Source: a virus. Taken from it: 39,552 nt of DNA. Location: positions 1 through 39,552 of the IMG/VR virus record IMGVR_UViG_3300031565_000132. The stretch is one strand, 5' to 3'. Positions 4,175 through 36,265 of the stretch are shown here, in pieces (position 1 is the stretch's first letter; each line of letters begins with the position of its first letter). Under the pieces are notes generated by a model that was given only the letters and a program-made list of their open reading frames with translations, was not told where the DNA came from and did no database searches. A program made the translations under genes and the position numbers.

Positions 4175-4531
4175 ATGTTCGAGACGTACCCATGGTTCGC
4201 TGATGTCGTCGCGGCGTTGTTGGGGCTCTTCGGCACGGCCATTGCTGCGGGGGTCACGGCATTGGTGGGCATCTTGGCGAAGAAGGCGCACCTGTCGCTC
4301 AGTGCGGAGCAGGACGCCAAGCTCGAGAAGATGGTGGCGGACCTGGTGCTGCGCGTGGAGGAGGAGATACGGCGGCATCGGTCAATGCCGTCCACGCCAG
4401 AGGCACCCCCGTTGATGTCGAAGGATGCCATCTTTGATGCCCTGGCGGCGGATGTCGGGTTGGACGTTGCCATCGCCCGTGGCGTACGCGACCATGTGTT
4501 ACCGCGTTTGCGGTCGTTGGGAGCTGCGTGA
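4175..4531 (+). CDS. Putative holin with N-terminal membrane segment
   Basis: 118 residues. The ATG at 4175 is preceded by AAGGAG at 4163-4168, six bases away, which makes it better than the GTG at 4160. Residues about 10-34 are a Gly/Ala-rich membrane segment. Residues about 43-70 are a long charged helix (K-L-E-K-M-V-A-D-L-V-L-R-V-E-E-E), and a short helical C-terminal domain follows. This is the layout of LLH-type phage holins, though I cannot confirm family membership. Position after the M15 endolysin supports a role in membrane permeabilisation. Confidence 0.6.
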   Translation: MFETYPWFADVVAALLGLFGTAIAAGVTALVGILAKKAHLSLSAEQDAKLEKMVADLVLRVEEEIRRHRSMPSTPEAPPLMSKDAIFDALAADVGLDVAIARGVRDHVLPRLRSLGAA

Positions 4532-4822
4532 ATGCCTGTTGACCCGTCGTCCCCACCGAATCCATGGACGTCGAGGGAGCCGTTGCTCGGGGGGGCCAGG
4601 GTGCCTTCCCCTGCCCCACCCGACCCGGCACCGCCGCTGGGGATTGTCCCATCGCTGGCGGCGGGTGCGCGCGGCGCTCTTGATTTGTCGGTGGACACGA
4701 GTCGGTTTCGCGCGGGCCTCGCCACCCGTGCGACGACCTGGCTCTCGGTGCGCGGATACGCGGAGCGGCAATGGGGAGGCGCGGGCTGGACAGCGGGCGC
4801 GAGCGCGGCCTTTCGCTGGTGA
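4532..4822 (+). CDS. Small Pro-rich protein with outer-membrane-like C-terminus
   Basis: 96 residues; the ATG directly abuts the previous TGA. Residues 1-45 are rich in Pro, Ser and Gly. Residues about 50-96 alternate polar and hydrophobic residues as two or three beta-strands, ending S-A-A-F-R-W. A terminal aromatic residue after an alternating strand resembles the beta-signal of outer-membrane proteins. Lying last in the lysis cassette, it could be a spanin-like or outer-membrane disruption factor. There is no lipobox or signal peptide, so this is only a hypothesis. Confidence 0.5.
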   Translation: MPVDPSSPPNPWTSREPLLGGARVPSPAPPDPAPPLGIVPSLAAGARGALDLSVDTSRFRAGLATRATTWLSVRGYAERQWGGAGWTAGASAAFRW

Positions 4823-4823
4823 T

Positions 4824-6092: not shown

Positions 6093-6982
6093 CCGCCTTC
6101 GATGCCGTCAAGCTGCCGCCGGCCTATGGGCTCCGCACGCTGTCTGAGCGCGAACGGGCTCAGATGACCGAGACGGAGGATCTGGAGGACCATCTCCTGA
6201 TCTGGGAAGCCCCGGCCCGCGGGCACAAGTACGTCATCGGGGTGGATGTCTCCGATGGCCTGGGGCAGAACCGGTCGGTGATCGATGTGTTGCGGGTGGG
6301 GACGATCGAGGAGCCCGATGAACAAGTCGCGCAATACGTCAGCCGATGGGTGGACCCGGTCGACCTGGCCTACCTTATCGACCCGGTGGGGCGGTTTTAC
6401 CGCGACGACGATGGCTTTGAAGCCCTGGTGGCCGTCGAGACGAACAATCACGGCGTGGCGACCCAGGCGGAGCTGGCGCGGCATCTCGGCTACGCGAACT
6501 TCTTTATCTGGCAGAAGGAGGATGCGGCGCCTGGCACGAACCGCTACACGACGGCCATTGGGTGGGTCACGACCTCACGGACGCGCCCGATCATCCTCTC
6601 GCGCTATCACAAGATGGTCAAGTCCGTGGACCCGGTCACCGGCCTCTCGGACTACCGCATCAATAGCCCGTTCACCATGGCCGAACTGAAAGACTTTCAG
6701 ACCGAAGGGATGCTCTGGGAGGCCGAGGCGTCGGCGGGCGCGACGGACGACTGCATCATGGCGGGGGCGATTGCCTGCCATGTCGCGCAGACCATGCACC
6801 ATGAGGAGTCGGAACCGGTGTCCGAGCAGCGACACCGCCTGGCTCAGGAGCGCGAGCGGTCGTCGGAGTTCGAGGATGCGCTGCGGACGCGCCGGGATTT
6901 CCAGAATACGGACACGACGATAGGAGAGTTGGATGGCGAAAGCGAGTTCGACGGGTGGAGCGGGGCGCAAGACTTCGAGTAA
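6089..6982 (+). CDS. Terminase large subunit, nuclease part
   Basis: 297 residues if translation begins at the TTG at 6089, which overlaps the upstream TGA. An RNase-H-like nuclease domain cuts concatemeric DNA at headful or site-specific ends. The expected acidic residues are present: Y-V-I-G-V-D-V-S-D-G (D53), V-A-V-E-T-N-N (E118), and A-T-D-D-C-I-M-A-G-A-I-A (D220/D221). Residues 240-297 are a charged tail. The residues flanking the junction (R-M-T-H, then L-T-A-F-D-A-V in the new frame) read naturally as one protein. I see no classic X-XXY-YYZ slippery heptamer. The overlapping stop and TTG could allow reinitiation as a separate subunit. Confidence 0.85.
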   Translation: MTAFDAVKLPPAYGLRTLSERERAQMTETEDLEDHLLIWEAPARGHKYVIGVDVSDGLGQNRSVIDVLRVGTIEEPDEQVAQYVSRWVDPVDLAYLIDPVGRFYRDDDGFEALVAVETNNHGVATQAELARHLGYANFFIWQKEDAAPGTNRYTTAIGWVTTSRTRPIILSRYHKMVKSVDPVTGLSDYRINSPFTMAELKDFQTEGMLWEAEASAGATDDCIMAGAIACHVAQTMHHEESEPVSEQRHRLAQERERSSEFEDALRTRRDFQNTDTTIGELDGESEFDGWSGAQDFE

Positions 6983-16354: not shown

Positions 16355-16723
16355 ATGTCCCGGCGTGGAACGCTCGTGCTCGTGCTGCTGCTTGGCTGGA
16401 CGACGCCCCTGTACGCCCAGTCGACTGACTCCTTCCCGTTACATCTCGCCCTGGCCGGCATGATGGCCGCGCATGGGGCCGATCTCTCTACCACCATGTA
16501 TTGCCTGGGGGCGGAGACGTGCCACGAGGCCAATCCGTTCTTTGCCCCGTTGACCCGGCATCCCGCAGCGGCGGGTGCGGTCAAGATGGGCATTGCCGCA
16601 GGCACGGCCTGGGTGCTGCTGCGGCACCACGAGGAGCACCCGAAGCTGGTGTTCTGGACCTCGGTGGGACTAACGGCCTTCTACACGGGCGTCGTGATTC
16701 ACAACGCAAGGCTGGGGCGATAG
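16355..16723 (+). CDS. Secreted/membrane protein with HEANP motif (DUF5658-like)
   Basis: 122 residues. A signal peptide is clear: basic R-R, hydrophobic V-L-V-L-L-L, then cleavage at L-Y-A|Q-S near residue 21. Residues 37-62 read A-H-G-A-D-L-S-T-T then H-E-A-N-P-F. Membrane segments follow at about 73-90 and 98-116, ending V-I-H-N-A-R-L. A-D-x-x-T-T with E-x-N-P and two spans resembles DUF5658-type bacterial proteins, which I have mostly associated with soil Acidobacteria. This would be a host-derived gene between virion genes, perhaps active in the host envelope. Family assignment is from memory. Confidence 0.55.
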   Translation: MSRRGTLVLVLLLGWTTPLYAQSTDSFPLHLALAGMMAAHGADLSTTMYCLGAETCHEANPFFAPLTRHPAAAGAVKMGIAAGTAWVLLRHHEEHPKLVFWTSVGLTAFYTGVVIHNARLGR

Positions 16724-18010: not shown

Positions 18011-19281
18011 TGGCTGACATTCAGACGGTCTACGGCACGTTCACCAAAGCCACCGGCACGGGCAATCAGTCGGTGTCGACCCTGGCCTTTCAGCCCAAGG
18101 CGGTGTTCTTCTGGTGGAATAACCATACCGCCCAGGACACGTTTGAAGACGCCGTGCGATTCGGCTGCGGCCTCTACGACGGCACCTTCCAGGTGGCGAT
18201 CTCCGCGGGGCACGCCGATGGGGGGGCGTCCGCCGACACGCTCTCCACCTTCGACGAAGCCTTCTGCATGCGCATGATGACGGAGGCCGGGTTCAACTAT
18301 GCGCGGGCGGCTGGTGTCTCCCTGGATACGAACGGCTTCACGGTGAACTGGACGATCAATAACGGCCTGGCCGAGACGGTACATTTCCTCGCCGTGGGGG
18401 GCGCGGAGGTACAGGCCAAGGTTGGCGTGGTTGATAGCGGCACGGCCGTGACGACGGTGGCCGCCACGGGCGTTGGGTTCCAGCCGTCGTGTCTGCTCCT
18501 GATGCCGGTGTGGTCCACGGCCACGACCGCGACCGGGGACTGTCGCACACCGGCCATTGGGGTCACGGACGGGGTGAACCAGGGCTGCATGGCCGCGCAC
18601 GGGGAAGACAACGTCAACCCCTCGAACACTACCCGGTATCAGCGCACGGACAAGTGTGTCGCCGCCCTGACGAACACGGGGGCGCTCCTCAAAGAGGCCG
18701 ATATCAGTTCGATGGACGCGGACGGGTTCACCCTCAACTGGACGACCAATGGCGCCCCGGATGGCGGGGTCTATTACCTAGCGATCCGCATGGCTGGGGC
18801 GTCCCCGACCGTGGGCGCCTTCACGCAGAAGACGTCGTCGGGGACCAAAGCTGTGAGCGGACTCGCGGCCGAACCGCAGACGCTGTTGTTTCTCGGCGTG
18901 GGAAACACGGCCAGCGGCGTCGTGGTCGATGGCTGCCGAGCCTCGATCGGGGCGTATCAGCCCGCCAGCGATGTGAACGGCGCCGCGTGGCACGGGTCGA
19001 CGCACGGGGTGACCCCGACGGAGGTGGTCAAGTACAACGCTTCGGCCAAGGCGGTGATCCACGCCACGCCGAATGCGACGGCCGCCAGTAGCACGATCGA
19101 GGCCGAGGCGGAGGTGTCAGCCATCGCGGGGGATGGGTTCACGCTGAACTGGACGACCGCGGATGCCGTCGCCCGCGAAGTGCTTTTTCTCAGCCTGCCC
19201 CTGGTGACGGCGCCGCCGGAAGCAGCCGACCTGTTCTGGTCGCCGCCGGTCGTGCATGTTGAAGGCGGGGCGCGTGGATGA
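18010..19281 (+). CDS. Threefold-repeat tail/decoration protein
   Basis: 423 residues; its ATG overlaps the previous TAA. It is built of three tandem beta modules. L-A-F-Q-P-K at 25-30, V-G-F-Q-P-S at 155-160 and L-A-A-E-P-Q at 285-290 are exactly 130 residues apart. Each module ends with a D/N-G-F-T-V/L-N-W-T strand (108-115, 238-245, 375-382). No family recognised. The C-terminus (L-F-W-S-P-P-V) looks like the beginning of a W-x-P repeat unit continued in the next protein. Repeated beta modules in this position suggest a fibre or surface-exposed tail appendage. Confidence 0.65.
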   Translation: MADIQTVYGTFTKATGTGNQSVSTLAFQPKAVFFWWNNHTAQDTFEDAVRFGCGLYDGTFQVAISAGHADGGASADTLSTFDEAFCMRMMTEAGFNYARAAGVSLDTNGFTVNWTINNGLAETVHFLAVGGAEVQAKVGVVDSGTAVTTVAATGVGFQPSCLLLMPVWSTATTATGDCRTPAIGVTDGVNQGCMAAHGEDNVNPSNTTRYQRTDKCVAALTNTGALLKEADISSMDADGFTLNWTTNGAPDGGVYYLAIRMAGASPTVGAFTQKTSSGTKAVSGLAAEPQTLLFLGVGNTASGVVVDGCRASIGAYQPASDVNGAAWHGSTHGVTPTEVVKYNASAKAVIHATPNATAASSTIEAEAEVSAIAGDGFTLNWTTADAVAREVLFLSLPLVTAPPEAADLFWSPPVVHVEGGARG

Positions 19282-22200
19282 CCTGGCGCGACACCGACCG
19301 GCATTCTGAGCAGACCTTCGGGCCGGTCTTTATCCCGGCAGGCACCCTCCCGGCGCCTGATACCTGGCTCCCTCGCTATCCAGACTTCGCTCGAGCAGCG
19401 GTCATCTCCGCGGCGCTGATTGCCAGCTCCGGGGTGGCGGTGAGTTCGCCGTATCCGGTGGATGCTCGCGGTCAGGTGTTCTGCCACACGCAGGAAGACG
19501 GCACGTTCTCGGAGTGGACCTCGGTTACGGCCGATGCGGACCTCACGGTCGATGCCGCCGCTGCGTTAGCGAACACGCACTATGGGATTCAGGTTGTCGT
19601 TGACGACACCACCACCCTGCAAGCGACACAGGAGTTTGACCGGGTCAACGCACGGGACACGGGTGGCTGGTCACTTCGCTATCACGCAAGTCTTGAGAAT
19701 CTAACCATCAATGTCGGGAATACGGTTGTCCCGATACGGCTCCAAGACGGAAGCGCGTTGTTCAGGTTCCAGTCGCTGATCTCAAACAACGGCGGAACGA
19801 TTCAGGTCCGAGGACAGATACACAACGACGCAGGCGCCAACCAAAACGGCACCCTGATCACGCTTGACTCGCCCACGACAGAACACGTCTTCGCGTTTAT
19901 CGCAACATGGGCATCGTCTGCGACAGCCTCAGATGGAACGCTAGAGTTTTTCATTGACGGTGTGTCGCAAGAGCTTCTGACGGGGCTCGACATCTACGAC
20001 CGGAATGGCCCAGACATCCTTCGCGCTGGGTTGTCCGGCGCGGACGGGGTGACGGCGGGCACGTTCAAGATCGATGAAGTTTGCTTTCGAGACGACACCC
20101 AGTTAATCGAGGACGCCTACCTCCCCGACTGGCGTGGCGTCTACGATGACGTCCTTCCGCACTGGACGCCTATCCATCGAGCCGAGTATCACCGAGCGTT
20201 CTTTTTAGACCCGAACAAGCCGCCATACGCACCAGCGGATCTTGCCTGGGCGCCCACGCTCAGCTACCGATTCCTACAGCCTGGCCTCCCGGCTCTCGGC
20301 AGTATCGAAGGCAGGCTCCAGGCGCCTATTCCGGTCGCGGAGCACCCCCAGTCCCTCAAAGGTGGGCACAAGCACAAGCCGGGGAAGGCGTATGGGCCAG
20401 GGCAGGAAGGCTATGCCCAGGCGCTGGCGGCCTCGTCCGGTTCGTTCGATCCAGGGATCTTCCCGCCACTACTTCCAGGCTCGGTGGCGAGCCAGGTCGC
20501 ACACTACCCCGACTGGATACCGGCGCCGCCACGGCTGCTGACCGCGGCACAGACCGCGTTTTTCCAGAGCCTTGAACCGATCGCGGCGCTCTACGACGAG
20601 TCGGAGTTCGGCTGGGCGCCAGCCTTTGACGCCCAGGTTCACCGCCGCCCAGAGGACCGCTACCAGCACCCGTCGTTCTTCGGCCCGGGCATTGAAGGCG
20701 TTGCCGATGTCGCCGCCGAGGAACTGGGCTGGCTGGCCGTCTACCCGGAGATGGCCCCCGGCCGCCGACCCATCGACTATCTGGGCCGTCTCGTCACGCC
20801 CGAGCTGCCTATCGATCCGCCGCCGCAACTGATCAACTGTGCGCGGGACTTCCTGGCCGCTGACACGACCACGTCCGCCACGGCCGAAGCCGTCGATGGG
20901 CTCTCGACCACGATCGACATTGTCCGCAGCGCCGAGATCGTCGCGTTCCTGTCGCTCGAGTCCAGCGTCGACACGTCTAACCGGGCGGGTAACTGGCGTC
21001 TCGTCATCGACAGCGAGACCGGGCCGACGATCACCCGCGAGCACAGCAACAGCAGCGACACCGGCAGCGTCGGCGTGCTGTTCCGTAGTGGGGTGCTCCC
21101 CGCCGGTACCTACACTGTCTCGGTTGAGCACTGGATCACGGGCGGGGCCGGCACGCTCACCACCGCCCAGGCCACGCTCGCCGTCATGGCGATGGAGGAC
21201 CAGGGCGGGAACCCGTTCATCAACGCCTACGACACGGTCGCCAGTGACACGACGCTCTCGGCCACCCTCGAGGACATCGACGGGCTGACGCAGGATCTCA
21301 GTCTCGACGGGACCAACTTCGTGCTCGGGGCGCTCATGGCGAGCGTCAGCAATTCCGGGGCGAACAACCTCTCCACGCTGGCCATCGACATCGCCGGTGA
21401 GGACGGCACGATCAATCGTCTGGTCTCGGGCGCGGGAGACATCGGAGCGGCGGGGGTGGTCAACCGTTCCACGGCGCGGCTCACCGGGACGCAGACGGTC
21501 AAGGGGCAGCATGCGACCGACGGCGGCACGCTGACCACCGCCCCGAGCCTCCTGTTCGGCCTGGAGCTGGGCACCAGCCCCGCGGAGATTCCCTCGTCCC
21601 ACGTCCGCGTCACCGCCGGGAGCACGACCTCGGCCAGTCTGGTCGACATCCCGGGACTGAATACCGACGTCATCCTCTCGCAGACGTCGAACATCCTGGC
21701 ACTCCTGACGCTGGATGCGACGAAGTCGTCCGGGGGCGATGCCAACTTCGCCATCCAGATCAACGGCGTCGATCAGGAGGCCATCACGCGGACGTTCGGT
21801 GGGGCCAATGATGACGGAGCCGTCGTTGTTGTCGCGCTGACCGCGGCACCCTTGGCCCCCGGGACATATACGGTCACCGCCCGCTGGTCGACGACAGGCG
21901 GGACGCTCTCGATCTTCAACGAAGCGAACCTGACCGTCCTCGCCTGCGAGCACTCGCTTCGCGTGGACGTGCCCGAGCTGAGCTGGGCGCCCACTTACCC
22001 CGACTTCGCCCGCACCCAGCAGCCAGCCGCCGAGTTCCCGGCCTTCGTCTTCGTCGGGGAGCCCGCGGATGTGCCGCCGGCCGCCGAGCGCCTGGCCTGG
22101 CTGGCTGTCTACCCCGACTTCGCTCGTGGGCTGACGCTCGACACCGCCAACCAGCCGACGGGCGCCTACGCCCCGGATGTCGACGAGATCGATGCCGTCG

Positions 22201-24716
22201 CGCTCTATCCGACCTGGGAGTCGACGGCACCCAACCAGCTCCCGGCCTGGACCACGACGCATGGCGCCCAGCTCCAGCAGCCGTTCTTCTTCGACCCGGA
22301 GCCACGGCCGGATGCCTACGACCCGCAGGAGCTGGGCTGGGCTCCGAGCTACGCAGACTTTGCTCGTGCCGAGACGCTGCCGACTGCCGCCCAGACCACC
22401 GGCGCGTTCCTGCCCGACCTGGACGACATCGCCGCAGGGTTGCTGTTCCCGACCTGGACGCCGACGTATCCCGACGAGCTGCTGCCGGCAGTGCGCGTCC
22501 CGGCCTTCCCGGCCCTGGCGTATGTCCCCGACCTGGCCGACTTCGCCGCCGAGGCCGCGTTCCCGACCTGGCTACCGACGTATCCAGCCTTCGCCCGCAC
22601 GACACCGCCGACGACCGAGTTCCCGGCGTTCGTGTTCGTGGGGGAGCCGAGCGATACGCCAGCGGCGGCAGAACGCTTCGCCTGGGAGCCGGTACTCCCT
22701 GACTTTGCGCGGGTCAGCACCCTCTCGGTCGCGGCGCAGCCCTTCCTGTTCTACCAGGAGGACGTTGACGAGCTCGACGCCGAGGCGCTGTATCCGACCT
22801 GGTCGCCCGTCTACCCAGCGACGGCGCCTGGGACGTCGCTCCTCACGGCCCAGCACCCGACGTTCGTCTTCTACCCTGAGCCACAGGTCGACGTTCCCAC
22901 GATTCCGTATTCGGTCTACCCGGATGCGCTCGAGCCGCTCGCCCGCACGGCATGGTATCCGTCGATCTTCTCGCAGATTGACGTCGCTGACATTGCGGCG
23001 GAGACGCCCTACCCGACGTGGTTGCCGGTCGCCCCCTCGTTTGCGCGAGCCGCGCATGTTCATGTCAGCCAGATCCCATCGGTCTTCTATGACTCGACGG
23101 CGACCTTGCCGGCCGCTGCTGCCCCGGAGCTGAGCTGGGCGCCAACACTGAGCTCGCGGTTCAGGCAGCCTGGCCTCCCATCGCTTGGTTCGTATGTCGC
23201 GTCCCTGCAGGCGCCGCTCAGGCGGTGGCCGGATGCGGTCTACCCAGACGCGATCGAGCCGACCCGGGGACTGCACGCCTCGCAGCAGCGCCCGTTTTTC
23301 TTCGATACGGAACCGATTCCGAACCCGGTGCCGGATGTCGTTTCCTCGAGCTATCCAGACCAGGTCGAACCGCCGCGTGGCCTGCCGACCGCGCTGCGCC
23401 CGTCGTTCTTCGCGCCCGCGTTCTGGCCGCCGAATACAGACGTCCCCAAGTTGGCCTGGACGCCGGTCTACCCCGGTCGGATCGACCCGCCGCAGGGGCT
23501 GACACCCTCGCTGCATCCGTCGTTCTTCCAGCCAGCCGCCTGGGCGCCGAACATCTCTGGCCCAGCGATTGGATGGCTGCCGGTCTACCCGACGACGTTG
23601 CCGCAGTGGGACGCGACCACCCACGCGAGTCGCATTCGCAGCGTCTTCTTCGACCCGGCGGATCTGAAGATTGACGTCGACCAACTGGCGTGGCACCCGG
23701 TCTACCCAGACGCGCTCCCTCAATGGGCGCTCTCGGTCCATACCAGTCGCATACCGTCGTACGCCGAACCTGGTTTCTGGCCGCCGAACACTACGATTCC
23801 AGACCTGAGCTGGTCGCCGGTCTACCCAGACTTCGCTCGCGTAGCCGAGCTGCACGCCAGTCAGATCCCGAGCGTCTTCCCGCCGGCCTTCTGGCCGCCA
23901 AACACTGGCGTCCCAGAACTGGCCTGGGCGCCGGTCTATCCGTCGCGGATAGCGCCGACGCAAGGACTCGAGGCCCAGCACCAGCGAGCGACGTTCTTCG
24001 ACCCCGACCCACAGGTCACGCCCATTGACGAGGCGTGGTGGCGTCCGGTCTATCCGTCCTGGCTGGCGCCGCCCACCGGGCTTGCGCCCTACCTGGCCCC
24101 GTCGTATGCCGAACCGGCATTCTGGCCGCCGAACACGCCAGTTCCGGCGCTGAGCTGGACGCCCGACTACCCGGCACAGCTCGCACCGCCAGCGGGGCTG
24201 CCGGCGTATCAGCAGCAGACGGTCGCGTTCAACCCGGCCCCACAGGTCGACCCGGTCGATGAGCTGGCGTGGCGTCCGGTCTATCCCGACATCGTGCGCG
24301 GGCTGTCGGTCCATGCGAGCCAGCAGGATGCGTTCGTCCTCTACGAAGACCCGCTGCCAGACGAGCCTGTGCTCTCGTGGGCGCCGGTCTATCCAGACTC
24401 CGCGCCTGGTCGCCCGCCGCTCACGCCGACCGTCATTACGCCGGTCTATCTGGGCGAGCCTGTCATCCCCCAGGCCGTGCTCTCGTGGGCGCCGGTCTAT
24501 CCAGACTTCGCCAGGCGCCAGCTCTCGAATGCGGCGTTCCAGTCGTTCTGGTTCCAGCCGGGCCCAGAGGTCTACCCGAACGACGGGATCGGCTGTATCC
24601 TCGTCACAACTGAAGGACTCGCGCAGCCGCTGATGGTGAGCGAGCTCGTGGGGGCGCCGGATCTCGACACCGAGACGCTGACGCAACCGCTCATGGTAGA
24701 TGAACAGGTGTGCTAG
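19278..24716 (+). CDS. Giant W-x-P-x-Y-P-D repeat tail protein
   Basis: 1812 residues; the ATG overlaps the previous stop (ATGA). Layout: one Y-P-D unit near 29-36; a LamG-like beta domain at about 60-280; about five units at 285-520; three tandem beta modules of about 115 residues at 525-895, each with an S-x-T-x-D-I-x-G-L start and two keeping a P-A-G-T-Y-T-V-like hairpin; then about 23 units of 33-43 residues from 902 to 1780; and a tail with duplicated Q-P-L-M-V. A typical unit is hydrophobic-x-W-x-P-V-Y-P-D, a short variable stretch, Q/H-P-S-F-F-x-P, then an acidic/Pro linker. No cysteine pattern, coiled coil or enzyme motif is seen. Probably an extended, surface-exposed adhesive or fibre protein. 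The family is unknown to me. Confidence 0.75.
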   Translation: MTWRDTDRHSEQTFGPVFIPAGTLPAPDTWLPRYPDFARAAVISAALIASSGVAVSSPYPVDARGQVFCHTQEDGTFSEWTSVTADADLTVDAAAALANTHYGIQVVVDDTTTLQATQEFDRVNARDTGGWSLRYHASLENLTINVGNTVVPIRLQDGSALFRFQSLISNNGGTIQVRGQIHNDAGANQNGTLITLDSPTTEHVFAFIATWASSATASDGTLEFFIDGVSQELLTGLDIYDRNGPDILRAGLSGADGVTAGTFKIDEVCFRDDTQLIEDAYLPDWRGVYDDVLPHWTPIHRAEYHRAFFLDPNKPPYAPADLAWAPTLSYRFLQPGLPALGSIEGRLQAPIPVAEHPQSLKGGHKHKPGKAYGPGQEGYAQALAASSGSFDPGIFPPLLPGSVASQVAHYPDWIPAPPRLLTAAQTAFFQSLEPIAALYDESEFGWAPAFDAQVHRRPEDRYQHPSFFGPGIEGVADVAAEELGWLAVYPEMAPGRRPIDYLGRLVTPELPIDPPPQLINCARDFLAADTTTSATAEAVDGLSTTIDIVRSAEIVAFLSLESSVDTSNRAGNWRLVIDSETGPTITREHSNSSDTGSVGVLFRSGVLPAGTYTVSVEHWITGGAGTLTTAQATLAVMAMEDQGGNPFINAYDTVASDTTLSATLEDIDGLTQDLSLDGTNFVLGALMASVSNSGANNLSTLAIDIAGEDGTINRLVSGAGDIGAAGVVNRSTARLTGTQTVKGQHATDGGTLTTAPSLLFGLELGTSPAEIPSSHVRVTAGSTTSASLVDIPGLNTDVILSQTSNILALLTLDATKSSGGDANFAIQINGVDQEAITRTFGGANDDGAVVVVALTAAPLAPGTYTVTARWSTTGGTLSIFNEANLTVLACEHSLRVDVPELSWAPTYPDFARTQQPAAEFPAFVFVGEPADVPPAAERLAWLAVYPDFARGLTLDTANQPTGAYAPDVDEIDAVALYPTWESTAPNQLPAWTTTHGAQLQQPFFFDPEPRPDAYDPQELGWAPSYADFARAETLPTAAQTTGAFLPDLDDIAAGLLFPTWTPTYPDELLPAVRVPAFPALAYVPDLADFAAEAAFPTWLPTYPAFARTTPPTTEFPAFVFVGEPSDTPAAAERFAWEPVLPDFARVSTLSVAAQPFLFYQEDVDELDAEALYPTWSPVYPATAPGTSLLTAQHPTFVFYPEPQVDVPTIPYSVYPDALEPLARTAWYPSIFSQIDVADIAAETPYPTWLPVAPSFARAAHVHVSQIPSVFYDSTATLPAAAAPELSWAPTLSSRFRQPGLPSLGSYVASLQAPLRRWPDAVYPDAIEPTRGLHASQQRPFFFDTEPIPNPVPDVVSSSYPDQVEPPRGLPTALRPSFFAPAFWPPNTDVPKLAWTPVYPGRIDPPQGLTPSLHPSFFQPAAWAPNISGPAIGWLPVYPTTLPQWDATTHASRIRSVFFDPADLKIDVDQLAWHPVYPDALPQWALSVHTSRIPSYAEPGFWPPNTTIPDLSWSPVYPDFARVAELHASQIPSVFPPAFWPPNTGVPELAWAPVYPSRIAPTQGLEAQHQRATFFDPDPQVTPIDEAWWRPVYPSWLAPPTGLAPYLAPSYAEPAFWPPNTPVPALSWTPDYPAQLAPPAGLPAYQQQTVAFNPAPQVDPVDELAWRPVYPDIVRGLSVHASQQDAFVLYEDPLPDEPVLSWAPVYPDSAPGRPPLTPTVITPVYLGEPVIPQAVLSWAPVYPDFARRQLSNAAFQSFWFQPGPEVYPNDGIGCILVTTEGLAQPLMVSELVGAPDLDTETLTQPLMVDEQVC
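21981..24590 (+). repeat. Array of about 23 degenerate W-x-P-x-Y-P-D coding repeats
   Basis: Units average about 114 bases and are divergent in DNA, so they are seen mainly in protein. Islands of near identity remain, for example ttctggccgccgaaca-like segments near 23421, 23775, 23889 and 24120, and gcgccggtctatccagac at about 24382 and 24490. The reading frame is kept throughout. Variation between units with conserved edges is the pattern expected of repeat expansion and recombination. Confidence 0.8.
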
Positions 24717-25109: not shown

Positions 25110-28100
25110 GTGGCCTACTCCTTCCGCTCGAGCTCGGCGCTGGTTCAGACCTTTGGTGCGTCGATCACGGTCGCGGCGCCAGCGGGCATCGTCGCGGGGG
25201 ATCTCCTGGTCTTCAGCCTGGTGCAGAAGGCTAAGGACTGGGGGACGTTCCCCGCCGGATGGGTGCTCGCCATCCACGGAGTGGCCGAGGCGGGTTCGCG
25301 TACCGAGATATGGTACAAGCGAGCCACGGGGAGTGAACCCGCGAACTACACGGTCACGCTGATCGACGGGTTCTTCGATTCCCTGGCAACGCAGGGCATC
25401 ATCGTGGCCTACGCGGGCGGGTTGGCCGCGGGGGTCATGCACGACCAGGTCGCCTTCCGCGACAACCCCGCCGGAACGAGCGGAGCGCCGAGTATCTCTC
25501 CGACCACTATCAACCAACTGGTTGTTACGGTGGAGGGGAAGTCTACGGCTGCGCCATTCCCCGGATCTTCGCCATCGTTGGGCGTCCCGTTCAGCGCGGC
25601 TTGGTTTCCCATGACGTCCCGGGCGAATCAGGGGTCGTCCACGCCCTCACCCATCGGCATTGGCGTAGCCGAGCGCCTGACGTTTGCGACGGCGTCTCCC
25701 ACGGGCGACGTGACGGGCTACGACACGACCTTCGGGAGCGCGGCTGCCATCGCGTCGTTCTTCCCCGCGGTCACCGAGCCTGGGCCTGGCGGGCCAACGC
25801 GCTACTACCCGGTGACGTCGTTTCCGTCCGTGCGGGTGGGTGGTCCTTGGGTTGGCGTCTGGGGGGACAAGGCAACCGCTGACCCGAACGGGGATTCCGG
25901 GGCTCTGCGATTGCAGACCTCGAAGGTTGACGGTGGCTGGCTTCGGCCATCTGCAAATCGTTGCAACCGGCAAGGGAACTACGATTTCGCGTGGGCGCGA
26001 TTCGCCACGCCACCGCTCGTCGCGCAACTCATCGACGGAACATTCGACGTGTGCTTCCAGGTGCGGGCGGCGTGGGAGGACGCGGTATTGGCCGATACGA
26101 CGGCCTCTGTCGTGGTCTACAAAGTCCACGTCTATATCGCTATCGGTGAGTCAACGACCGTGCGCCACACGCTGCTTGATAATTACGTTGATTCAGGTGC
26201 GTGGGTTGGGCCGCCAGTCACCGCGACCTACCAGGGGCTCGCTGGGCCTCCCACGCTGTTGCCGAACAGCACCGTGGACGGAGACGTCATCGTGATCGAG
26301 ATCGGGGCGCGGATTGTGTCGTCTCCCACGCCAGCGCCGACCTATCCCGCCAGTAATATGACCGCCCTCCCCATCAACGGGATTGGCGTGACGGACACGG
26401 TCAATGCGGCCTACGTCGATGCTGCTCCGGGGGATACGTTCGCCACGTTTGCTCCGTGGATGGAGTTCTCGGGGACACACGTCCCGGCGGCTGTCCCGCT
26501 GCCCCCAGCGAACGGGTCGTGCGCGACCGCCACCGTGATTGCCTCGCTCCCGTATGACTCTGGGTTCATCGACACCACGCAGGCCACCGATCCCGGGTGG
26601 AACCCCGGCGGCTCCCCGAAAGATGGCGGGCGGGCGGTCTGGTGGACGTGGACTGCCGACCGGAACGGGACGGTCTTCTTTGCTACTCGCGGCAGCAACT
26701 ATCCCTGCAGTACCTATATCCTGCAAGGCGGGTGCGGGGGGCTGAGCTTCGGGTCAGCGTCTTGGAATACGCGGCGGCGGTACGGGACGGGGCGTGACCA
26801 GGGGTCAGCGTCCATGGATGTCGTGGCTGGCGTCACGTACCACATCGTCGTGCAGCATTGGCAGAGCGACTTCTTCACCTATGGCAACAACCAGGGCGGA
26901 TCGTGCCGACTGCTCGGGTTCTACCGAGAAGTACCAGTAGAAAACGACATCTATATTGTCTCCGGCGACGTGCTTGCCTTGCGCGAGACGAGTCCTGGCG
27001 TGCTGACGCCTGTCAATTTGGGCTCAGAGAACGTGCCGTCAGAACCGGCCGGCGTGGCTATCGACTACACCAAGCGGCCCATGGTGTCCGTCGAGGGAGT
27101 GAGCCCGCATGTAGACGAGCGGTTGCTCGTCGCGTCGTTCGCCTTTGGGCACGTCGATGTCATGGACCTAAAGACCCTGGCGTGGTCGGATGGGTTCACG
27201 GGATACGTTGACTACTTGAGTCCGTGGGGGGCGCTAGGTCCGAATGCTGCCCAGATGTACATCACGGCAGCGGGGTTCCTGTGGTTCGGCCAGTTCGGGA
27301 ACGGGTTCCACCTTGTGGGCAGTGCCGGCCTGCTTCCGGCGTTTCTTGATAACGTGAGCGATGACCCCGACATCAGCACCCCGCTTGGGGTTGAGGCGAT
27401 CAACGGGACGTCACAGGCTGGTTCGCCGTTCGCCTACCAGACCCTGAACGCCCCGCACCCCGTCGTGGAGCACACGGCTGTCTGGTGCTTCACGGTGGAC
27501 GAAGCGAACAACATTCTCTTTTACTCCAGTGGTGGACAGTATTCGTCAGAGACAGGCGACCATCCCACGCGAAACAACATTGCGGCCGTGCAGATCAAGC
27601 GGTACGACCTGTCGACGAATACGCAACTCGCGGACTTCGCCACGGTCACCCCGGCCGCTGGCGTGAACCCGGGGCTCAAGGGGATGAGATTCTTGCCGGG
27701 AGATGGGGGGTTGCTCGTGTGCAACGGCTCTCAGGTCTTGCGGCTCAGCAGCGCAGGCGCCGTGGTGGGGACGTTCACGCCGTCCATTCCGGCGGAGTCC
27801 AATACCCTGCAAGACCTCGTGGTCCTGGCGGATCAGTCCGCGTTCTGGGTGCAGGATCTCAACACCACCCGACTGTTCAAGTTCGACCTGGCGGTCGGCA
27901 TCGAGGTTGCCACATATCAGCCCTACGCCGAACAGGGCGGCTTTGTGCAGATGGCGATCTATCTCCCTGATGGGCATTCGATCTGCCCGCCTGGCTCAGC
28001 CCCCTGTCCACCGCCGCCCTGCTTGGACCCACCGTGTGGTCCACCACCACCACCGGGGCCGGGCCCGAGCGAGGGATGCCCGCCGGTGTCGCATGTGCCG

Positions 28101-28154
28101 ACCGCGAGCTCGACTGGGGGCGGCTGTGCCCCTGTGCCTAATCAAGGAGAGTAG
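25110..28154 (+). CDS. Multidomain tail protein with PPC-like domain and beta-propeller
   Basis: 1014 residues from a GTG directly after the previous stop. Residues 1-215 are a beta-sandwich (S-I-T-V-A-A-P-A-G-I-V-A-G-D-L-L-V). Residues about 225-465 are a second beta domain. Residues about 468-610 match the bacterial pre-peptidase C-terminal (PPC) pattern: N-G-S-C-A-T-A-T-V-I, V-W-W-T-W-T-A, G-S-N-Y-P, then A-G-V-T-Y-H-I-V-V. Residues about 612-955 repeat blade-like strands (V-L-R-L-S-S-A-G, L-F-K-F-D-L), as in NHL/SMP-30-type propellers. A Cys/Pro-rich tail (about 956-1014) follows. Likely a host-recognition tail protein assembled from imported modules. Confidence 0.65.
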   Translation: MAYSFRSSSALVQTFGASITVAAPAGIVAGDLLVFSLVQKAKDWGTFPAGWVLAIHGVAEAGSRTEIWYKRATGSEPANYTVTLIDGFFDSLATQGIIVAYAGGLAAGVMHDQVAFRDNPAGTSGAPSISPTTINQLVVTVEGKSTAAPFPGSSPSLGVPFSAAWFPMTSRANQGSSTPSPIGIGVAERLTFATASPTGDVTGYDTTFGSAAAIASFFPAVTEPGPGGPTRYYPVTSFPSVRVGGPWVGVWGDKATADPNGDSGALRLQTSKVDGGWLRPSANRCNRQGNYDFAWARFATPPLVAQLIDGTFDVCFQVRAAWEDAVLADTTASVVVYKVHVYIAIGESTTVRHTLLDNYVDSGAWVGPPVTATYQGLAGPPTLLPNSTVDGDVIVIEIGARIVSSPTPAPTYPASNMTALPINGIGVTDTVNAAYVDAAPGDTFATFAPWMEFSGTHVPAAVPLPPANGSCATATVIASLPYDSGFIDTTQATDPGWNPGGSPKDGGRAVWWTWTADRNGTVFFATRGSNYPCSTYILQGGCGGLSFGSASWNTRRRYGTGRDQGSASMDVVAGVTYHIVVQHWQSDFFTYGNNQGGSCRLLGFYREVPVENDIYIVSGDVLALRETSPGVLTPVNLGSENVPSEPAGVAIDYTKRPMVSVEGVSPHVDERLLVASFAFGHVDVMDLKTLAWSDGFTGYVDYLSPWGALGPNAAQMYITAAGFLWFGQFGNGFHLVGSAGLLPAFLDNVSDDPDISTPLGVEAINGTSQAGSPFAYQTLNAPHPVVEHTAVWCFTVDEANNILFYSSGGQYSSETGDHPTRNNIAAVQIKRYDLSTNTQLADFATVTPAAGVNPGLKGMRFLPGDGGLLVCNGSQVLRLSSAGAVVGTFTPSIPAESNTLQDLVVLADQSAFWVQDLNTTRLFKFDLAVGIEVATYQPYAEQGGFVQMAIYLPDGHSICPPGSAPCPPPPCLDPPCGPPPPPGPGPSEGCPPVSHVPTASSTGGGCAPVPNQGE

Positions 28155-28156
28155 TG

Positions 28157-29968
28157 ATGATGCGACGACTTCTATTCGGTATCGTGGCAGGGTTGCTGCT
28201 CGGCGCCGTGCTGCTCGAGGCCCAGGCGCTCTCGCCCGGGGTGCTGCAGCTCCTGCAGCGTGACAATACCTGGACGGGGACGCAGACCTTCAACGCCAGC
28301 GTGGGTGACGGCGGGATCGAGCTGACGGATGGCGCCCCGACGACGACGTCCATGCGGTTGTATCGCGTGGGGAGCACGCTCTACTTCAACGGCAGCATCG
28401 TGGCGGCCATCGCGCCCGGCGCGGCCGTGCCGCACAACCTGTTGTCGGCAGACCATCCTGACACCAGCGCACAGAGCCCCGTGCGGGGTGACCTGGTCGT
28501 GGCAACCGCCGCCCCGAACTGGGAGCGGTTCGCTATCGGGGGCGTGGGCTCGATGCTGCGCTCCAACGGTGGCGACCCCGTTTGGTCGACCGATGCGTCG
28601 TCCTTGACGCAGCTCAACGCCTCGCAGCTCAGCGCCGGGAGCGTGCCCCTGGCGCGGCTCTCTGGCATCACGAACACGCAGATCGCGGGCGCTGCCGCCA
28701 TCGCCTGGACGAAGCTGGACACGACGGGGAGTTCGCTCGCAGACCTCGTTACGCGGTCGGCCGCTGACCTGTCGAGTGGCACCCTGGCCGATGCGCGTCT
28801 CGGCGCGACCGTCTCGCTCCTGGGGCAGACCATCGAATCGGCCGAGATCACGAACGGCACGATCGTCTTCGCGGACTGGGGGTCGAATGCGTGCGGCGCC
28901 GGCCAGGTCGCACAGTACAACGGGGCCGCCTGGGTCTGCGCGGCGGATGCGGGCACCGGCACCGTGACGTCGGTAGCGATGACCGTGCCGGCGATCTTCT
29001 CATTGGCGGGTTCGCCCGTGACGACCACCGGAACCTTCGCGCTCACGCTGGCGACTGAAGTGGCGAACACGGTCTGGGCTGGCCCGACGACCGGGGCCGC
29101 GGTAGCACCAACCTTCCGTGCGCTCGTGGACGACGACATCCTCGACACGCTCACCGTGGCAGGCACGGGCAACGTCACCTGGGCGTCCATCAACCAGTCG
29201 GCCTCAACGCTGGCTGACTTGAATACGCGGCTCATCTCGGACACGACCGGCACGCTCGCAGCCACTCGCGGCGGCACGGGCGTCATTACAGTGGCGGCGG
29301 GGCAGTACCTGCGGGCCAGCGGGCTGGACACCTGGGCGACGAGTGCCATCCTGGCGGCTGACCTCCCGGCGACGGCGCTGACCACCACGTCCGTGTCCTC
29401 ACTGACGAACAAGACGATTGACGCGGAGGCGGCTGGCAACATCATCACGCTACCCGTGGTTGAATACCTCAAGGCGGCCACCTGTAACAACGCGACGGCG
29501 GATACCGACTGGTCCTTCGAGACGACGCTCCCGGCGGTGCCGACCTGTGTCACCGGCACCAATACGCAGCGGGGCGTCCTGGGGTTCACGGACGCCGGGA
29601 CAATCCTCAAGGCCCACACCGAACTGCGCCTCGCGGGGGACTGGGACGTGGGTGTCGTGGACGCGGAGTTTACCTGGCACACGACCGCCGTGTCTGGTGC
29701 AGTCGTCTGGCAGCTCGAGACGACGTGCGTGGCGGCCGGTGAGACGGGTGACCCAGCGTTCAACACGGCCCAGGTCGTCGTGAGCAACGCGCAAGGGACA
29801 ACCTTGTTCTATCAGGAAGCGGCGATGGCTGGCGTGGACATGACCGGATGCGCCGCAGGCGAGCATCTCTATCTGCGCGTGAGTCGTGATCCGGCCCATG
29901 TGTCGGATACACTGGCAGCGACAGCGAGTCTTGTCGGCCTCGAGTTGACGTATCGGAGGGCCATGTGA
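28157..29968 (+). CDS. Tail-fibre-like protein with apparent signal peptide
   Basis: 603 residues from the ATG at 28157, with AAGGAG seven bases upstream; a GTG at 28154 overlaps the previous stop and is less likely. The N-terminus is basic (M-M-R-R), then hydrophobic (F-G-I-V-A-G-L-L-L-G-A-V-L-L), ending E-A-Q-A-L-S, a good signal peptide. The body has phage-fibre features: W-T-G-T-Q-T-F-N, G-T-V-T-S-V-A followed by T-G-T-F-A-L-T-L, and A-T-R-G-G-T-G-V-I. The C-terminal about 190 residues form a separate beta domain with cysteines. A signal peptide on a fibre-type protein is unexpected for virion assembly in the cytoplasm. Confidence 0.7.
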   Translation: MMRRLLFGIVAGLLLGAVLLEAQALSPGVLQLLQRDNTWTGTQTFNASVGDGGIELTDGAPTTTSMRLYRVGSTLYFNGSIVAAIAPGAAVPHNLLSADHPDTSAQSPVRGDLVVATAAPNWERFAIGGVGSMLRSNGGDPVWSTDASSLTQLNASQLSAGSVPLARLSGITNTQIAGAAAIAWTKLDTTGSSLADLVTRSAADLSSGTLADARLGATVSLLGQTIESAEITNGTIVFADWGSNACGAGQVAQYNGAAWVCAADAGTGTVTSVAMTVPAIFSLAGSPVTTTGTFALTLATEVANTVWAGPTTGAAVAPTFRALVDDDILDTLTVAGTGNVTWASINQSASTLADLNTRLISDTTGTLAATRGGTGVITVAAGQYLRASGLDTWATSAILAADLPATALTTTSVSSLTNKTIDAEAAGNIITLPVVEYLKAATCNNATADTDWSFETTLPAVPTCVTGTNTQRGVLGFTDAGTILKAHTELRLAGDWDVGVVDAEFTWHTTAVSGAVVWQLETTCVAAGETGDPAFNTAQVVVSNAQGTTLFYQEAAMAGVDMTGCAAGEHLYLRVSRDPAHVSDTLAATASLVGLELTYRRAM

Positions 29969-30120
29969 TGACGATTCCCTGGAAGACGGTAGGTTACGGC
30001 CTCGTCGGGTGTTTCCTGGGGCTCCTGCTCTACGGACTGACGCTCCATCTCTGGACCGACCACGCAGCCATTCACGAGCTCGCCGGCCTCGAAGTGCAGC
30101 GCCAGGCGGCGGAGGAGTAG
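29968..30120 (+). CDS. 50-residue single-span membrane protein
   Basis: The ATG at 29968 overlaps the previous TGA (TGATG) and has GGAGG at 29955-29959. The stop at 30118-30120 abuts the next ATG. The product has one membrane segment at about 9-28 (G-L-V-G-C-F-L-G-L-L-L-Y-G-L) and a short charged C-terminal helix ending A-A-E-E. It is flanked tightly on both sides, which supports expression. It follows the signal-peptide-bearing fibre gene, and its role may be linked to membrane targeting of that product. Confidence 0.7.
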   Translation: MTIPWKTVGYGLVGCFLGLLLYGLTLHLWTDHAAIHELAGLEVQRQAAEE

Positions 30121-30834
30121 ATGGCCTACGCAAGCGTCACGCTCTCGAATCTCCGCCAGCGCCTGCAGGACAAGTGGGAGGGCGTCCCGTTCTGGTCGGA
30201 GGAAGAGGCGCTGACCGCGATCAACGAGAGCCTGCACGTCTGGAACATGCTCACCGCCATGTGGAAGGTGCGGGCGACCGTGCTGACGACGCCCAATGAC
30301 CCGTGGGTGCCGCTGCCGAGTACCATGACCTATGGTCTGCGCGTCGAGTTTGGCGGGCATCCACTCGGTCTGAGCTCGATCCAGGCGCTCGACCTGGCGA
30401 TTCCGCGGTGGCAGGGACAGACGACCGCCTCTGGTGGGTCCGTGCCGACGTCGCCGCGAGTTTTTGCGAAGGCCGGGATCAACCTGTTGGCTATCTGGCC
30501 GGCGGATGCGGTAGGCCTCAACAGTCTGGTCGTCGACTCGGTCACTGAAACGCCGGTGCTCCAGACCAACGACGATACGGTAGACGTAGGGGAAGAAGAC
30601 CTGAACACGCTCCTGGGCTACGCGCTGCATGTAGCGTCGTTCAAGGAGGCGGGTCCACGGTGGCAGTCGACGCAAGGGTACTACCGGGCGTTCATGACGG
30701 CGGCGGCGGATCGGAACCATCGGCTCCGCACCAGTGCGTACTTCCGTGTTGCCATGGGCCTCGACCAAGCCCCGATGCAGCCCTTCCGTGTGCGTGAGTC
30801 ACTGGATGGGAAGCATCAGACGCAAGCATCATGA
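30121..30834 (+). CDS. Connector/adaptor-like virion protein
   Basis: 237 residues; the ATG directly follows the previous TAG. N-terminal helix-turn with W-S-E-E-E-A-L-T-A-I-N-E-S-L, then W-V-P-L-P-S-T-M strands, a V-F-A-K-A-G-I-N-L-L-A-I-W-P strand pair, and a C-terminal helical half (L-N-T-L-L-G-Y-A-L-H-V-A-S-F-K-E). This order, helices then W/V-x-L-P and L-x-x-x-W-P strands then helices, is that of small head-tail adaptor or tail-tubular-type proteins of short-tailed phages. It overlaps the next similar gene by four bases. Confidence 0.55.
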   Translation: MAYASVTLSNLRQRLQDKWEGVPFWSEEEALTAINESLHVWNMLTAMWKVRATVLTTPNDPWVPLPSTMTYGLRVEFGGHPLGLSSIQALDLAIPRWQGQTTASGGSVPTSPRVFAKAGINLLAIWPADAVGLNSLVVDSVTETPVLQTNDDTVDVGEEDLNTLLGYALHVASFKEAGPRWQSTQGYYRAFMTAAADRNHRLRTSAYFRVAMGLDQAPMQPFRVRESLDGKHQTQAS

Positions 30835-31472
30835 GCCAGATTACTGACCAGGCGATTCTGTCGGAGATGCAACGACACCTTATCGAAGTGGTGAACGGGG
30901 GGTTGTCGTGGGAGTCTGACCTGTGGACGGTGGACGAGGTTCACGGGTATCTGAACCAGCGGCAGAACCGGTTCCTGCGCGAGACGATGCTGCTGCAGTC
31001 CTGGGCGAATGTGCCCTACGCACCGTCGCAGCTCCGGCACGACCTCCCCACGGACTTCGTGGCGCTCGCGCGGGTGGTGTGGAAGAGCTCGACGGGCGTG
31101 TTCTACGGGCTGCCACGGACGGATGGGTTCGCCGCGGACTACGGCGACAGCGATTGGCCGACCGCCTCCGAGAGTCGCCCCCGGTTCTACATGGAGGCAG
31201 AAACTCCGACGCGCACCATCCAGGTCGCCCCGGTCACGACGGACACGGGGTCGATCGAGATCCTCTACGTGGCGCTGTCGGCGGTCCTGGGGAATGAGTA
31301 TGCCGAGTTCTTCACCGTGCCGGACCTGTTCGTTCCAGCCGTGAAGTGGGGCACGCTGGCTGACATGCTCGCCAAGGTGGGCCGAGGACAAGACAACCCC
31401 CGAGCGGGCTATTGCGAGAGTCGATACCGGGAAGGTGTCATGGCGGCACTGTTGCTGCAGGAAGGGCAATAG
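30831..31472 (+). CDS. Second connector/adaptor-like virion protein
   Basis: 213 residues; the ATG overlaps the previous stop (ATGA). The N-terminus has W-T-V-D-E-V-H-G-Y-L-N-Q-R-Q-N-R-F and the middle L-P-T-D-F-V-A-L-A-R-V-V-W-K. Strands I-Q-V-A-P-V and I-E-I-L-Y-V and a helical C-terminus with G-R-G-Q-D-N-P follow. The layout matches the preceding gene and the protein at 14056, so the three may be paralogous neck components. Located directly before the largest tail-base protein gene. Confidence 0.55.
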   Translation: MSQITDQAILSEMQRHLIEVVNGGLSWESDLWTVDEVHGYLNQRQNRFLRETMLLQSWANVPYAPSQLRHDLPTDFVALARVVWKSSTGVFYGLPRTDGFAADYGDSDWPTASESRPRFYMEAETPTRTIQVAPVTTDTGSIEILYVALSAVLGNEYAEFFTVPDLFVPAVKWGTLADMLAKVGRGQDNPRAGYCESRYREGVMAALLLQEGQ

Positions 31473-35522: not shown

Positions 35523-35852
35523 ATGGCGACCAGGAAGACGGGGATGCCGCACGTCCAAGAGATTCAGGACCGGGCGGTGCAGCAGGCGATTCGATTGGTC
35601 TACGAGCGGCTGTCTATTCTTGAGACGGAGACAGACCCGCTGCTCGTCACGGGCGCTGGGCGTCGACCACGGGAGGCGACGGCGAAGGCGAAAGCCTCAA
35701 GCCGTATCAGCAACATCATTGATCCGGCCGAGGCCCAGGACGCCGCGACGAAGGCGTATGTCGACCGAGCAATCAGCGGTTACCGAAACGAGAATGCCGC
35801 GCTGCGGAGCGAGCTCCGTCGACTCGCAGCGGTGGTGGCGGCCCTGCCATGA
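35523..35852 (+). CDS. Short fibre-like coiled protein
   Basis: 109 residues, ATG directly after the previous TAG. It carries I-S-N-I-I-D-P-A-E-A-Q-D-A-A-T-K-A-Y-V-D at 63-82, the motif widely found in phage tail-fibre proteins just before their coiled coils, and ends in a helix (R-S-E-L-R-R-L-A-A-V-V-A-A-L). Lacking a receptor domain, it may be the stem or cap of a larger fibre. Its stop overlaps the next ATG (ATGA). Confidence 0.65.
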   Translation: MATRKTGMPHVQEIQDRAVQQAIRLVYERLSILETETDPLLVTGAGRRPREATAKAKASSRISNIIDPAEAQDAATKAYVDRAISGYRNENAALRSELRRLAAVVAALP

Positions 35853-36265
35853 CGACTGATGCCGGCGTGGTGCTGTCGATGCCTGACGTGCGGGTGCTCC
35901 CGCCGGAGGACTGGGATCGGTTGGCGGAGTTCCATCCGTTCACGGAGTTCGGGATTCCGCACCCTGAGTATGCGACAATCGTCGTGGCCGAGGAGCAGGA
36001 CGAGATCGTAGCGTTCTGGTGTCTGTTCCAGACGGTTCATGTCGAGCCCATGTGGATAGCCGATGCCCATCGGCACCGTCCAGGGCTCATTCGACGGTTG
36101 TGGAAAACCGTCACCACGGTACTGGCAGACGCAGGGATTCCGGCGGCGTTCGCGGTGATCCTCGACGAGAATGCTCAGGCCACCCTCTCCCCGGCCTTGC
36201 GCCTCGGGTTCAAGAAGGTACCTGGCGACCTGTTTGTCATCACACCAGGCAAGGAGAAAACCTAA
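35849..36265 (+). CDS. GNAT-like N-acetyltransferase
   Basis: 138 residues. Strand I-V-V-A-E-E-Q-D-E-I-V-A-F-W, then a helix in which R-H-R-P-G-L-I-R-R-L-W could occupy the acetyl-CoA binding loop, then A-V-I-L-D-E-N and a L-R-L-G-F-K-K-V-P-G-D strand, the typical GNAT end. The usual Q/R-x-x-G-x-G/A P-loop is degenerate (R-P-G-L-I-R), so activity is uncertain. Phage GNAT proteins can modify host or virion proteins. Placed between a fibre gene and internal-virion-type genes; both neighbours overlap. Confidence 0.55.
   Translation: MTTDAGVVLSMPDVRVLPPEDWDRLAEFHPFTEFGIPHPEYATIVVAEEQDEIVAFWCLFQTVHVEPMWIADAHRHRPGLIRRLWKTVTTVLADAGIPAAFAVILDENAQATLSPALRLGFKKVPGDLFVITPGKEKT

Follow-up and report, generated by a model that had tools for sequence, protein, structure and literature searches.

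A tail-fiber-like phage protein with a predicted Sec signal peptide, and signal-bearing, cysteine-rich proteins in the fiber loci of other phages

A 603-aa tail-fiber-like protein in a virus record begins with a predicted Sec-type signal peptide, and similar signals recur on fiber-locus genes of other phages. The record, IMG/VR entry IMGVR_UViG_3300031565_000132, was analyzed whole (39,552 bases; "the window" below) and may be a fragment of a genome. Read directly from the sequences were the signal and its Shine-Dalgarno sequence, the fiber-like body with its tip, the recurrence of signals, a cysteine signature, and the contrast with the relative L004, which has a fiber interval in which no signal-bearing gene was found. 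In our judgment, these make it very probable that the protein is functionally exported, and they leave the chances that it acts away from the virion about evenly balanced. The explanation that we favor, to which we give an even chance, is that of an accessory, Sec-exported, fiber-like adhesin whose place of action is the envelope or matrix. The features of this part of the window are as follows.

25110 to 28154, plus strand: upstream 1014-aa protein that looks fiber-like, with no signal and 14 cysteines beyond residue 30 (ORF list, cysteine count)
28144 to 28149, plus strand: Shine-Dalgarno sequence AAGGAG, 7 nt before ATG 28157 (sequence)
28157 to 29968, plus strand: signal-bearing tail-fiber-like protein, 603 aa, with GTG 28154 as an alternative start (ORF list, translation, BLAST match)
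28157 to 28228, plus strand: Sec/SPase I-type signal peptide of 24 residues, with predicted cleavage between AQA and LS (rule-based score)
28265 to 28291, plus strand: fiber motif NTWTGTQTF, 12 residues past the predicted cleavage site (peptide encoded in 104 IMG/VR stretches)
28433 to 28465, plus strand: HNLLSADHPDT fiber module, resembling HNLLSASHTDT of L133 (by eye)
28892 to 28939, plus strand: cysteine pair C246 and C261, a candidate disulfide (positions in sequence; pairing putative)
29465 to 29965, plus strand: C-terminal tip domain, rich in beta structure, whose four cysteines are C443, C464, C524, and C565 (alignment, AlphaFold2, fold matches)
29968 to 30120, plus strand: 50-aa protein with one predicted span at about 29989 to 30045, probably N-in, with an acidic tail and 29965 as an alternative start (sequence)
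30121 to 30834, plus strand: SU10_adaptor-family protein (Pfam E 2.6e-9), which matches Tunturi_1 gp30 and marks the tail-gene context
30831 to 31472, plus strand: second SU10_adaptor-family protein (Pfam E 5.2e-12)

By our home-made, rule-based scorer, the N terminus had the n-, h-, and c-regions and the small-X-small cleavage site of a Sec/SPase I signal peptide, with MMRR as the n-region, LLFGIVAGLLLGAVLL as the h-region, and EAQA, followed by LS after the cut, as the c-region. The protein opens with MMRRLLFGIVAGLLLGAVLLEAQA, continues past the predicted cleavage site with LSPG, and shortly afterwards reaches the fiber motif LLQRDNTWTGTQTF. The signal scored 59.7. When the protein was shuffled 20,000 times at constant composition, a single shuffle reached 59, and in a second set of 20,000, any score at all was obtained by 1.9%. 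The scorer, which is not SignalP, recognized OmpA and MalE, turned down LacZ, and overlooked PhoA; simple membrane anchors, for instance, Tunturi gp18, pass it as well. Four of 31 hand-listed ORFs in the window scored: those at 28157 (59.7), 16355 (39.4), and 839 (24.7, weak) and the 50-aa ORF (34.8). The ORF at 16355 to 16723, in the tail-gene region, encodes a 122-aa DUF5658 protein (Pfam E 2.6e-9) with a signal-like N terminus. Because AAGGAG is located at 28144 to 28149, ATG 28157 was taken as the start, with the signal included, and the position of this Shine-Dalgarno sequence ruled out a misannotated start that would remove the signal. By eye, no comparable site precedes any of the later in-frame starts that were listed, which run from 28184 to 28553. 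A preliminary description of this DNA had placed two ORFs at 28157 to 29968 and 29968 to 30120 (both plus strand) and had read the first as fiber-like with a signal peptide, to be checked by signal-peptide prediction. Both ORFs exist as described, and the signal held up in the prediction by our scorer, in the shuffle test, and in the placement of the Shine-Dalgarno sequence.

The fiber-like body described there was likewise borne out, by the NTWTGTQTF motif and by a tip domain common to phage tail fibers. Residues 513 to 599 matched a protein of Pseudomonas phage Achelous annotated as "tail fiber protein" (35% across 87 aa), with an E value of 9e-3 for the whole protein as the query and 1e-3 for the C-terminal domain alone. 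The domain query returned 14 Pseudomonas-phage records at E up to 10, the best at 1e-3, and the five that were inspected were Uliginvirus. The tip domain was also present in gp74 of EBPR siphovirus 2 (query L133, E 1e-6). In IMG/VR, a degenerate tip pattern occurred in four stretches; the domain is encoded in L132, L133, and L134, and L135 was rejected as a chance match in a 17-codon frame. The window domain was 54% identical to that of L133 and 49% identical to that of L134. Uliginvirus fibers, gp74, and L132 carry the domain with no signal detected by eye or by script. In the AlphaFold2 model, the tip was all beta. Confidence was moderate: pLDDT averaged 63 over 167 residues, of which 72 fell between 70 and 90 and 46 below 50. 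Foldseek gave 127 matches among viral models at an E cutoff of 0.001. Proteins of uncultured Caudovirales phages ranked highest, and the first ten included a putative Aeromonas phage MJG tail fiber as well as collagen-like giant-virus proteins. Against the PDB there were 12 matches at the same cutoff, TNF-, CBM6-, and Pgp3-like proteins among them, with query-normalized TM-scores below 0.5. Assignment to the tail fibers was made on the motif, on the matches to Achelous and other Pseudomonas-phage tail fibers, and on the viral fold matches; the 603-aa protein matched no Pfam or PHROG family, and neither collection revealed a tail-attachment domain after the signal. Sequence searches of solved structures gave nothing at E up to 1. 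Two scans of genome contigs with narrow patterns, for which absence is weak evidence, produced 35 and 147 candidate stretches and no confirmed cellular homologue of the tip, and an alignment-based tip scan of IMG/VR confirmed five loci, all of them the Uliginvirus records already matched.

The closest annotated head-protein matches of the window were Tunturi_1 and Tunturi_2 (26.6% identity, E 3e-29; three records matched altogether), which are podoviruses with an Acidobacteriota host. The window holds a head and tail module with a terminase, portal, and major head protein (PHROG matches) and the two SU10_adaptor proteins (Pfam), and the terminase, portal, head protein, adaptors, and a 1349-aa tail protein matched Tunturi_1 in identical gene order. 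The accessible portion of the paper describing the isolation of the Tunturi phages names only Tunturi_1 and Tunturi_2 as mutually close (PMC11924767). The 1014-aa protein upstream of the fiber matched no Pfam or PHROG family above the cutoff, and no close IMG/VR relatives of the whole 603-aa protein or of either adaptor were confirmed.

Signals were concentrated in the fiber interval of Tunturi_1, where five of six genes (gp12 to gp17) scored versus 1 of 28 others (Fisher P = 1.3e-4; 34 plus-strand genes between gp2 and gp37). The sole scoring gene outside the interval was gp18, which encodes a 44-aa membrane protein. The matching five genes and gp18 scored in Tunturi_2 (6 of 20 examined), as did gp113 and gp114 in the siphovirus Tunturi_4 (2 of 19 examined). 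None of 26 structural-region genes scored in Tunturi_3, which has the same host strain as Tunturi_1; one of three genes outside that region scored and is annotated as a lipoprotein. A Bradyrhizobium phage had no scoring gene among 16, and one 67-aa gene looked signal-like by eye. Of 91 IMG/VR fiber ORFs that contain NTWTGTQTF and are complete at the 5′ end, four scored, with three plausible cases (L039, L098, and L112); L068 was rejected, scoring at an internal start only. Several neighboring signal-bearing genes were found around L039 and L098 and in L134, some of them scoring only at internal starts, and L112 had one. This means that the signal-bearing form is a minority among fibers and is often clustered. 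The L134 fiber scored at three starts 25 to 32 codons inside its longest ORF, and L133, negative with the scorer, had by eye a hydrophobic segment ending in AHAQ about 94 to 116 codons inside its longest ORF. Two signal-bearing proteins matched PHROG tail fiber families, L112 (phrog_5668, 1.7e-16) and that of an L098 gene (phrog_972, 2.2e-7), and ten further ones that were scanned matched no fiber family in PHROGs. A signal-bearing L134 gene matched Pfam Beta_helix (E 7.5e-15), and Tunturi_1 gp17 fell below the Pfam cutoff. In the phage collection, neither the 512-aa fiber of L098 nor the 599-aa fiber of L039 had a match at E of 0.001. The long nonsignal genes of Tunturi_1 are gp31 and gp36, and since no long nonsignal fiber is evident, its signal-bearing proteins could be virion receptor-binding proteins. 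The premise of the preliminary description that virion proteins lack signals is therefore uncertain: nearly all of the large fiber and spike genes of Tunturi_1 bear signals, and some may encode virion proteins. Tunturi_1 gp17 (L010 19474 to 23028) and Tunturi_4 gp114 (L126 35018 to 37324) have in common a domain of about 650 aa, at about 50 to 56% identity. As one of these phages is a podovirus and the other a siphovirus, a host-specific spike may have been transferred.

If the signals are functional, the mature proteins would fold in an oxidizing place, and cysteine contents were therefore compared. In samples that were hand-picked and nonindependent (several proteins per genome), with some starts chosen for the signal, the mean cysteine content was 1.69% for 23 signal-bearing proteins versus 0.69% for 25 nonsignal tail proteins from the same or related genomes (P = 1.5e-6). 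Ordinary fibers, represented by 71 nonredundant NTWTGTQTF ORFs, some of them cut by contig ends, averaged 0.18% (P = 5e-14 against the signal-bearing set). The number of cysteines in the mature protein was even in 18 of 22 cases (P = 0.002), in 19 of 23 with the later-added L006 protein (P = 0.0013), and in 16 of 23 when a fixed 30-residue cut replaced the cleavage site, which for L133 had been set by eye. The positions were also conserved. A good example of this is the pair Tunturi_1 gp17 and Tunturi_4 gp114, in which 19 of 20 cysteines coincide at 56% identity (P = 1.6e-4). The window protein shared all five aligned cysteines with the signal-bearing L134 fiber (P = 0.011) and four of six with L133 (42.5% identity; P = 0.22), compared to one of four with L132 and none of two with Achelous (one opposite a gap), both nonsignal; L133 shared none of four with nonsignal gp74. 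However, there were exceptions. The nonsignal window genes at 18010 (1.78% cysteine) and 25110 (1.42%) exceed the signal-bearing one (1.05%), and three other Uliginvirus fibers carry one or two cysteines. With these exceptions, the paired, conserved cysteines suggest a mature part fitted to an oxidizing compartment, and cysteine richness with even counts is what would be expected of disulfide folding outside the cytoplasm. The case for export, as the preliminary description proposed it, thus appears to extend beyond a hydrophobic N terminus to the recurrence of signals on other phages' fiber-locus genes and to the cysteine signature.

Two relatives, L004 and L006 (head protein 72% identical), hold the fiber interval; an adaptor in the L004 contig was 43% identical over 143 residues. 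In L006, the first fiber gene encodes a signal-bearing protein of 554 aa with six cysteines after the signal, next comes the start of a signal-bearing gene resembling Tunturi_1 gp17 and Tunturi_4 gp114, and then follows a fiber without a signal, 420 aa to the contig end, with no cysteines. The reading frame of the gp114-like gene (L006 15377 to 17058) shifts after 72 codons, which may be real or due to assembly. When plus-strand ORFs with a minimum length of 45 aa were scored at their first starts, the L004 interval yielded none with a signal; its nonsignal fiber of 505 aa has no cysteines, and the interval also holds a small single-span ORF. The signal-bearing fiber therefore looks optional in this group, being present in L006 with none found in the L004 interval. 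Signals also go with cysteines, since the nonsignal fibers of L004 and L006 have none, whereas the signal-bearing L006 fiber and Tunturi_1 gp12 (20 cysteines in 1190 aa) contain them. A stretch of 59 to 77 aa of signal-bearing gp12 is common to the nonsignal L004 and L006 fibers.

In the explanation that we favor, the fiber-like adhesin would be exported through the host Sec system, lose its 24-residue signal, and probably form up to three disulfides in the periplasm. The mature adhesin would then have its site of action beyond the cytoplasm, either in the envelope or in the polysaccharide around it, as an optional member of the fiber locus with other fibers alongside. Its job, likely late in infection, may be to occupy or clear a surface polysaccharide or receptor used by the phage, so that progeny and later phages would not be stuck to the producing cell or its debris. 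Action at the host envelope, by receptor blocking or as a decoy, is a reasonable inference. The occurrence of beta-helix and fiber proteins with signals in one locus suggests binding, masking, or cutting of polysaccharide that leaves progeny unretained; work on polysaccharide fits because signal-bearing beta-helix proteins are found in such loci. On a broader scale, and at slightly less than an even chance, tailed phages may carry a fiber-locus cassette of Sec-exported, disulfide-bonded fibers and beta-helix spikes, which would be either secreted adhesins and depolymerases or proteins mounted outside the cytoplasm. A further point runs counter to our explanation: Sec alone delivers proteins to the periplasm and leaves the crossing of the outer membrane unexplained.

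The main rival is that the protein is a virion fiber made by an unusual route, in which it would be exported, fold and trimerize in the periplasm with disulfides, and dock to the tail at or after lysis. Such late attachment is possible and is made plausible by Tunturi_1, because most of its large fiber-interval genes bear signals, five of the six, with no evident long nonsignal fiber. The stretch of gp12 shared with the nonsignal L004 and L006 fibers points the same way, as does the tip domain on nonsignal proteins that include annotated tail fibers. However, the L004 interval has no detected signal-bearing ORF, several large fiber-like genes of the window lack signals, no tail-attachment domain is recognizable after the signal, and Tunturi_3, despite sharing the host strain, has no signal on any of its 26 structural-region genes. 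We consider this route unlikely, at roughly one chance in four. The N terminus might instead be an uncleaved anchor that keeps the fiber on the periplasmic face of the inner membrane, with or without the 50-aa protein as a partner, which would be in keeping with the long hydrophobic core (16 residues) and with the position of the L133 segment about 94 codons inside its longest reading frame. This is improbable, in that the AQA-LS junction suits SPase I and the signals of many signal-bearing relatives end in alanine followed by Q. Equally improbable is an ordinary virion fiber with a hydrophobic N terminus that has no role in export, serving as a tail-insertion or chaperone-binding segment or resulting from capture of a host secreted-protein sequence. 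Phage proteases can remove signal-like ends of virion proteins, as argued in the accessible text on Porphyromonas gingivalis phage capsid proteins (PMC10367356), but the enrichment, parity, and conservation of cysteines and the recurrence of signals across phage morphotypes speak against it.

Very improbable, in our view, is that the fiber and the 50-aa membrane protein work as a single unit of superinfection exclusion, by analogy with T5 pb5 and Llp. The 50-aa ORF does encode a membrane protein, as first described, with one predicted span of 19 residues, whose Kyte-Doolittle values average 1.84, and an acidic C-terminal tail (net charge -4). Its ATG at 29968 overlaps the fiber stop, it ends just before the adaptor gene at 30121, and in Tunturi_1 and Tunturi_2 the 44-aa single-span gp18 likewise directly follows signal-bearing gp17. 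In T5, Llp adjoins pb5 downstream, and added pb5 blocks T5 infection, according to the accessible part of PMC9586334. The earlier proposal that fiber and membrane protein act together was nevertheless weakened by L004, where the interval has a small single-span ORF and no signal-bearing ORF among those tested. Because of this small ORF, the two proteins are probably not a pair, and the tiny protein is apparently independent of the exported fiber; it probably has a separate function, perhaps in lysis. No endolysin was found among the scanned ORFs of this possibly fragmentary record, and the 50-aa ORF had no convincing PHROG match (best E 0.12). A lipoprotein requires a lipobox in a cleavable signal, with a polar start of the mature protein. 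By eye, the 50-aa ORF lacks this Llp/Cor arrangement and a clean lipobox: its LVGC resembles one, but a hydrophobic stretch follows the cysteine, and the lipoprotein reading was rejected.

A close parallel among cultured phages is gp12 to gp17 of Tunturi_1 and Tunturi_2 (PP887698 and PP885685), podoviruses with shared gene order and Sec-type signals on fiber and spike genes, in which gp17 is directly followed by the 44-aa single-span gp18. They differ in having five signal-bearing genes rather than one, and the window fiber had no BLAST match at E of 0.05 in Tunturi_1 stretch 1 to 50000. The tail fiber protein of Achelous and its Uliginvirus kin shares the C-terminal stretch, but its N terminus is different and lacks a signal, and the Achelous fiber has no cysteine after residue 30. 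L133 and L134 share the C-terminal domain, a signal-type segment, and fiber modules; the L133 segment, however, lies inside a longer ORF and is unscored by the script, and the L134 fiber is one of several signal-bearing genes. Chlamydia Pgp3, "secreted" according to PDB titles, was one of the proteins that matched the tip model weakly, a likeness of structure only, with no sequence relation shown and query-normalized TM-scores of 0.42 to 0.48 among the matches listed. T5 also encodes an envelope-directed protein beside its receptor-binding protein; the accessible part of PMC9586334 describes Llp as a periplasmic lipoprotein that blocks the phage's own receptor, which shows that phages do use such blocking. 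In T5, the envelope-directed protein is the small lipoprotein Llp, whereas in the window the fiber-like protein itself bears the signal.

The cytoplasm is regarded as the place where phage fibers fold and assemble. If our reading is correct, either receptor binding and matrix cutting are tasks of proteins secreted by phages, or the last steps in the assembly of some tails take place outside it; both would depart from cytoplasmic tail assembly and would change fiber-gene annotation and studies of host range and superinfection. The cultured isolates Tunturi_1, Tunturi_2, and Tunturi_4 make this proposed class of exported fibers directly testable. The literature searched, which left out most subscription papers, held no description of signal-bearing tail fibers, nor did the accessible portions of PMC11924767, PMC12309495, PMC13001222, PMC10367356, PMC8951688, PMC9586334, PMC3338817, and PMC6102473. 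The closest published statement found, in the accessible part of PMC10367356, concerns P. gingivalis phages with signal-bearing genes of unknown function, in which signal-like ends of capsid proteins are likely cleaved by phage prohead proteases.

Some further features of the window were apparent. The large terminase appears to be split between overlapping ORFs at 4425 to 6092 and 6089 to 6982, which align to residues 66 to 404 and 471 to 605, respectively, of the single Tunturi_1 terminase ORF. At 19278 to 24716, a 1812-aa protein contains, by eye, many WAPVYPDFAR-type repeats. Finally, the tail module includes a GNAT acetyltransferase gene (35849 to 36265), and an acetyltransferase is also annotated in the tail-gene region of Tunturi_1, Tunturi_2, Tunturi_3, and the Bradyrhizobium phage.
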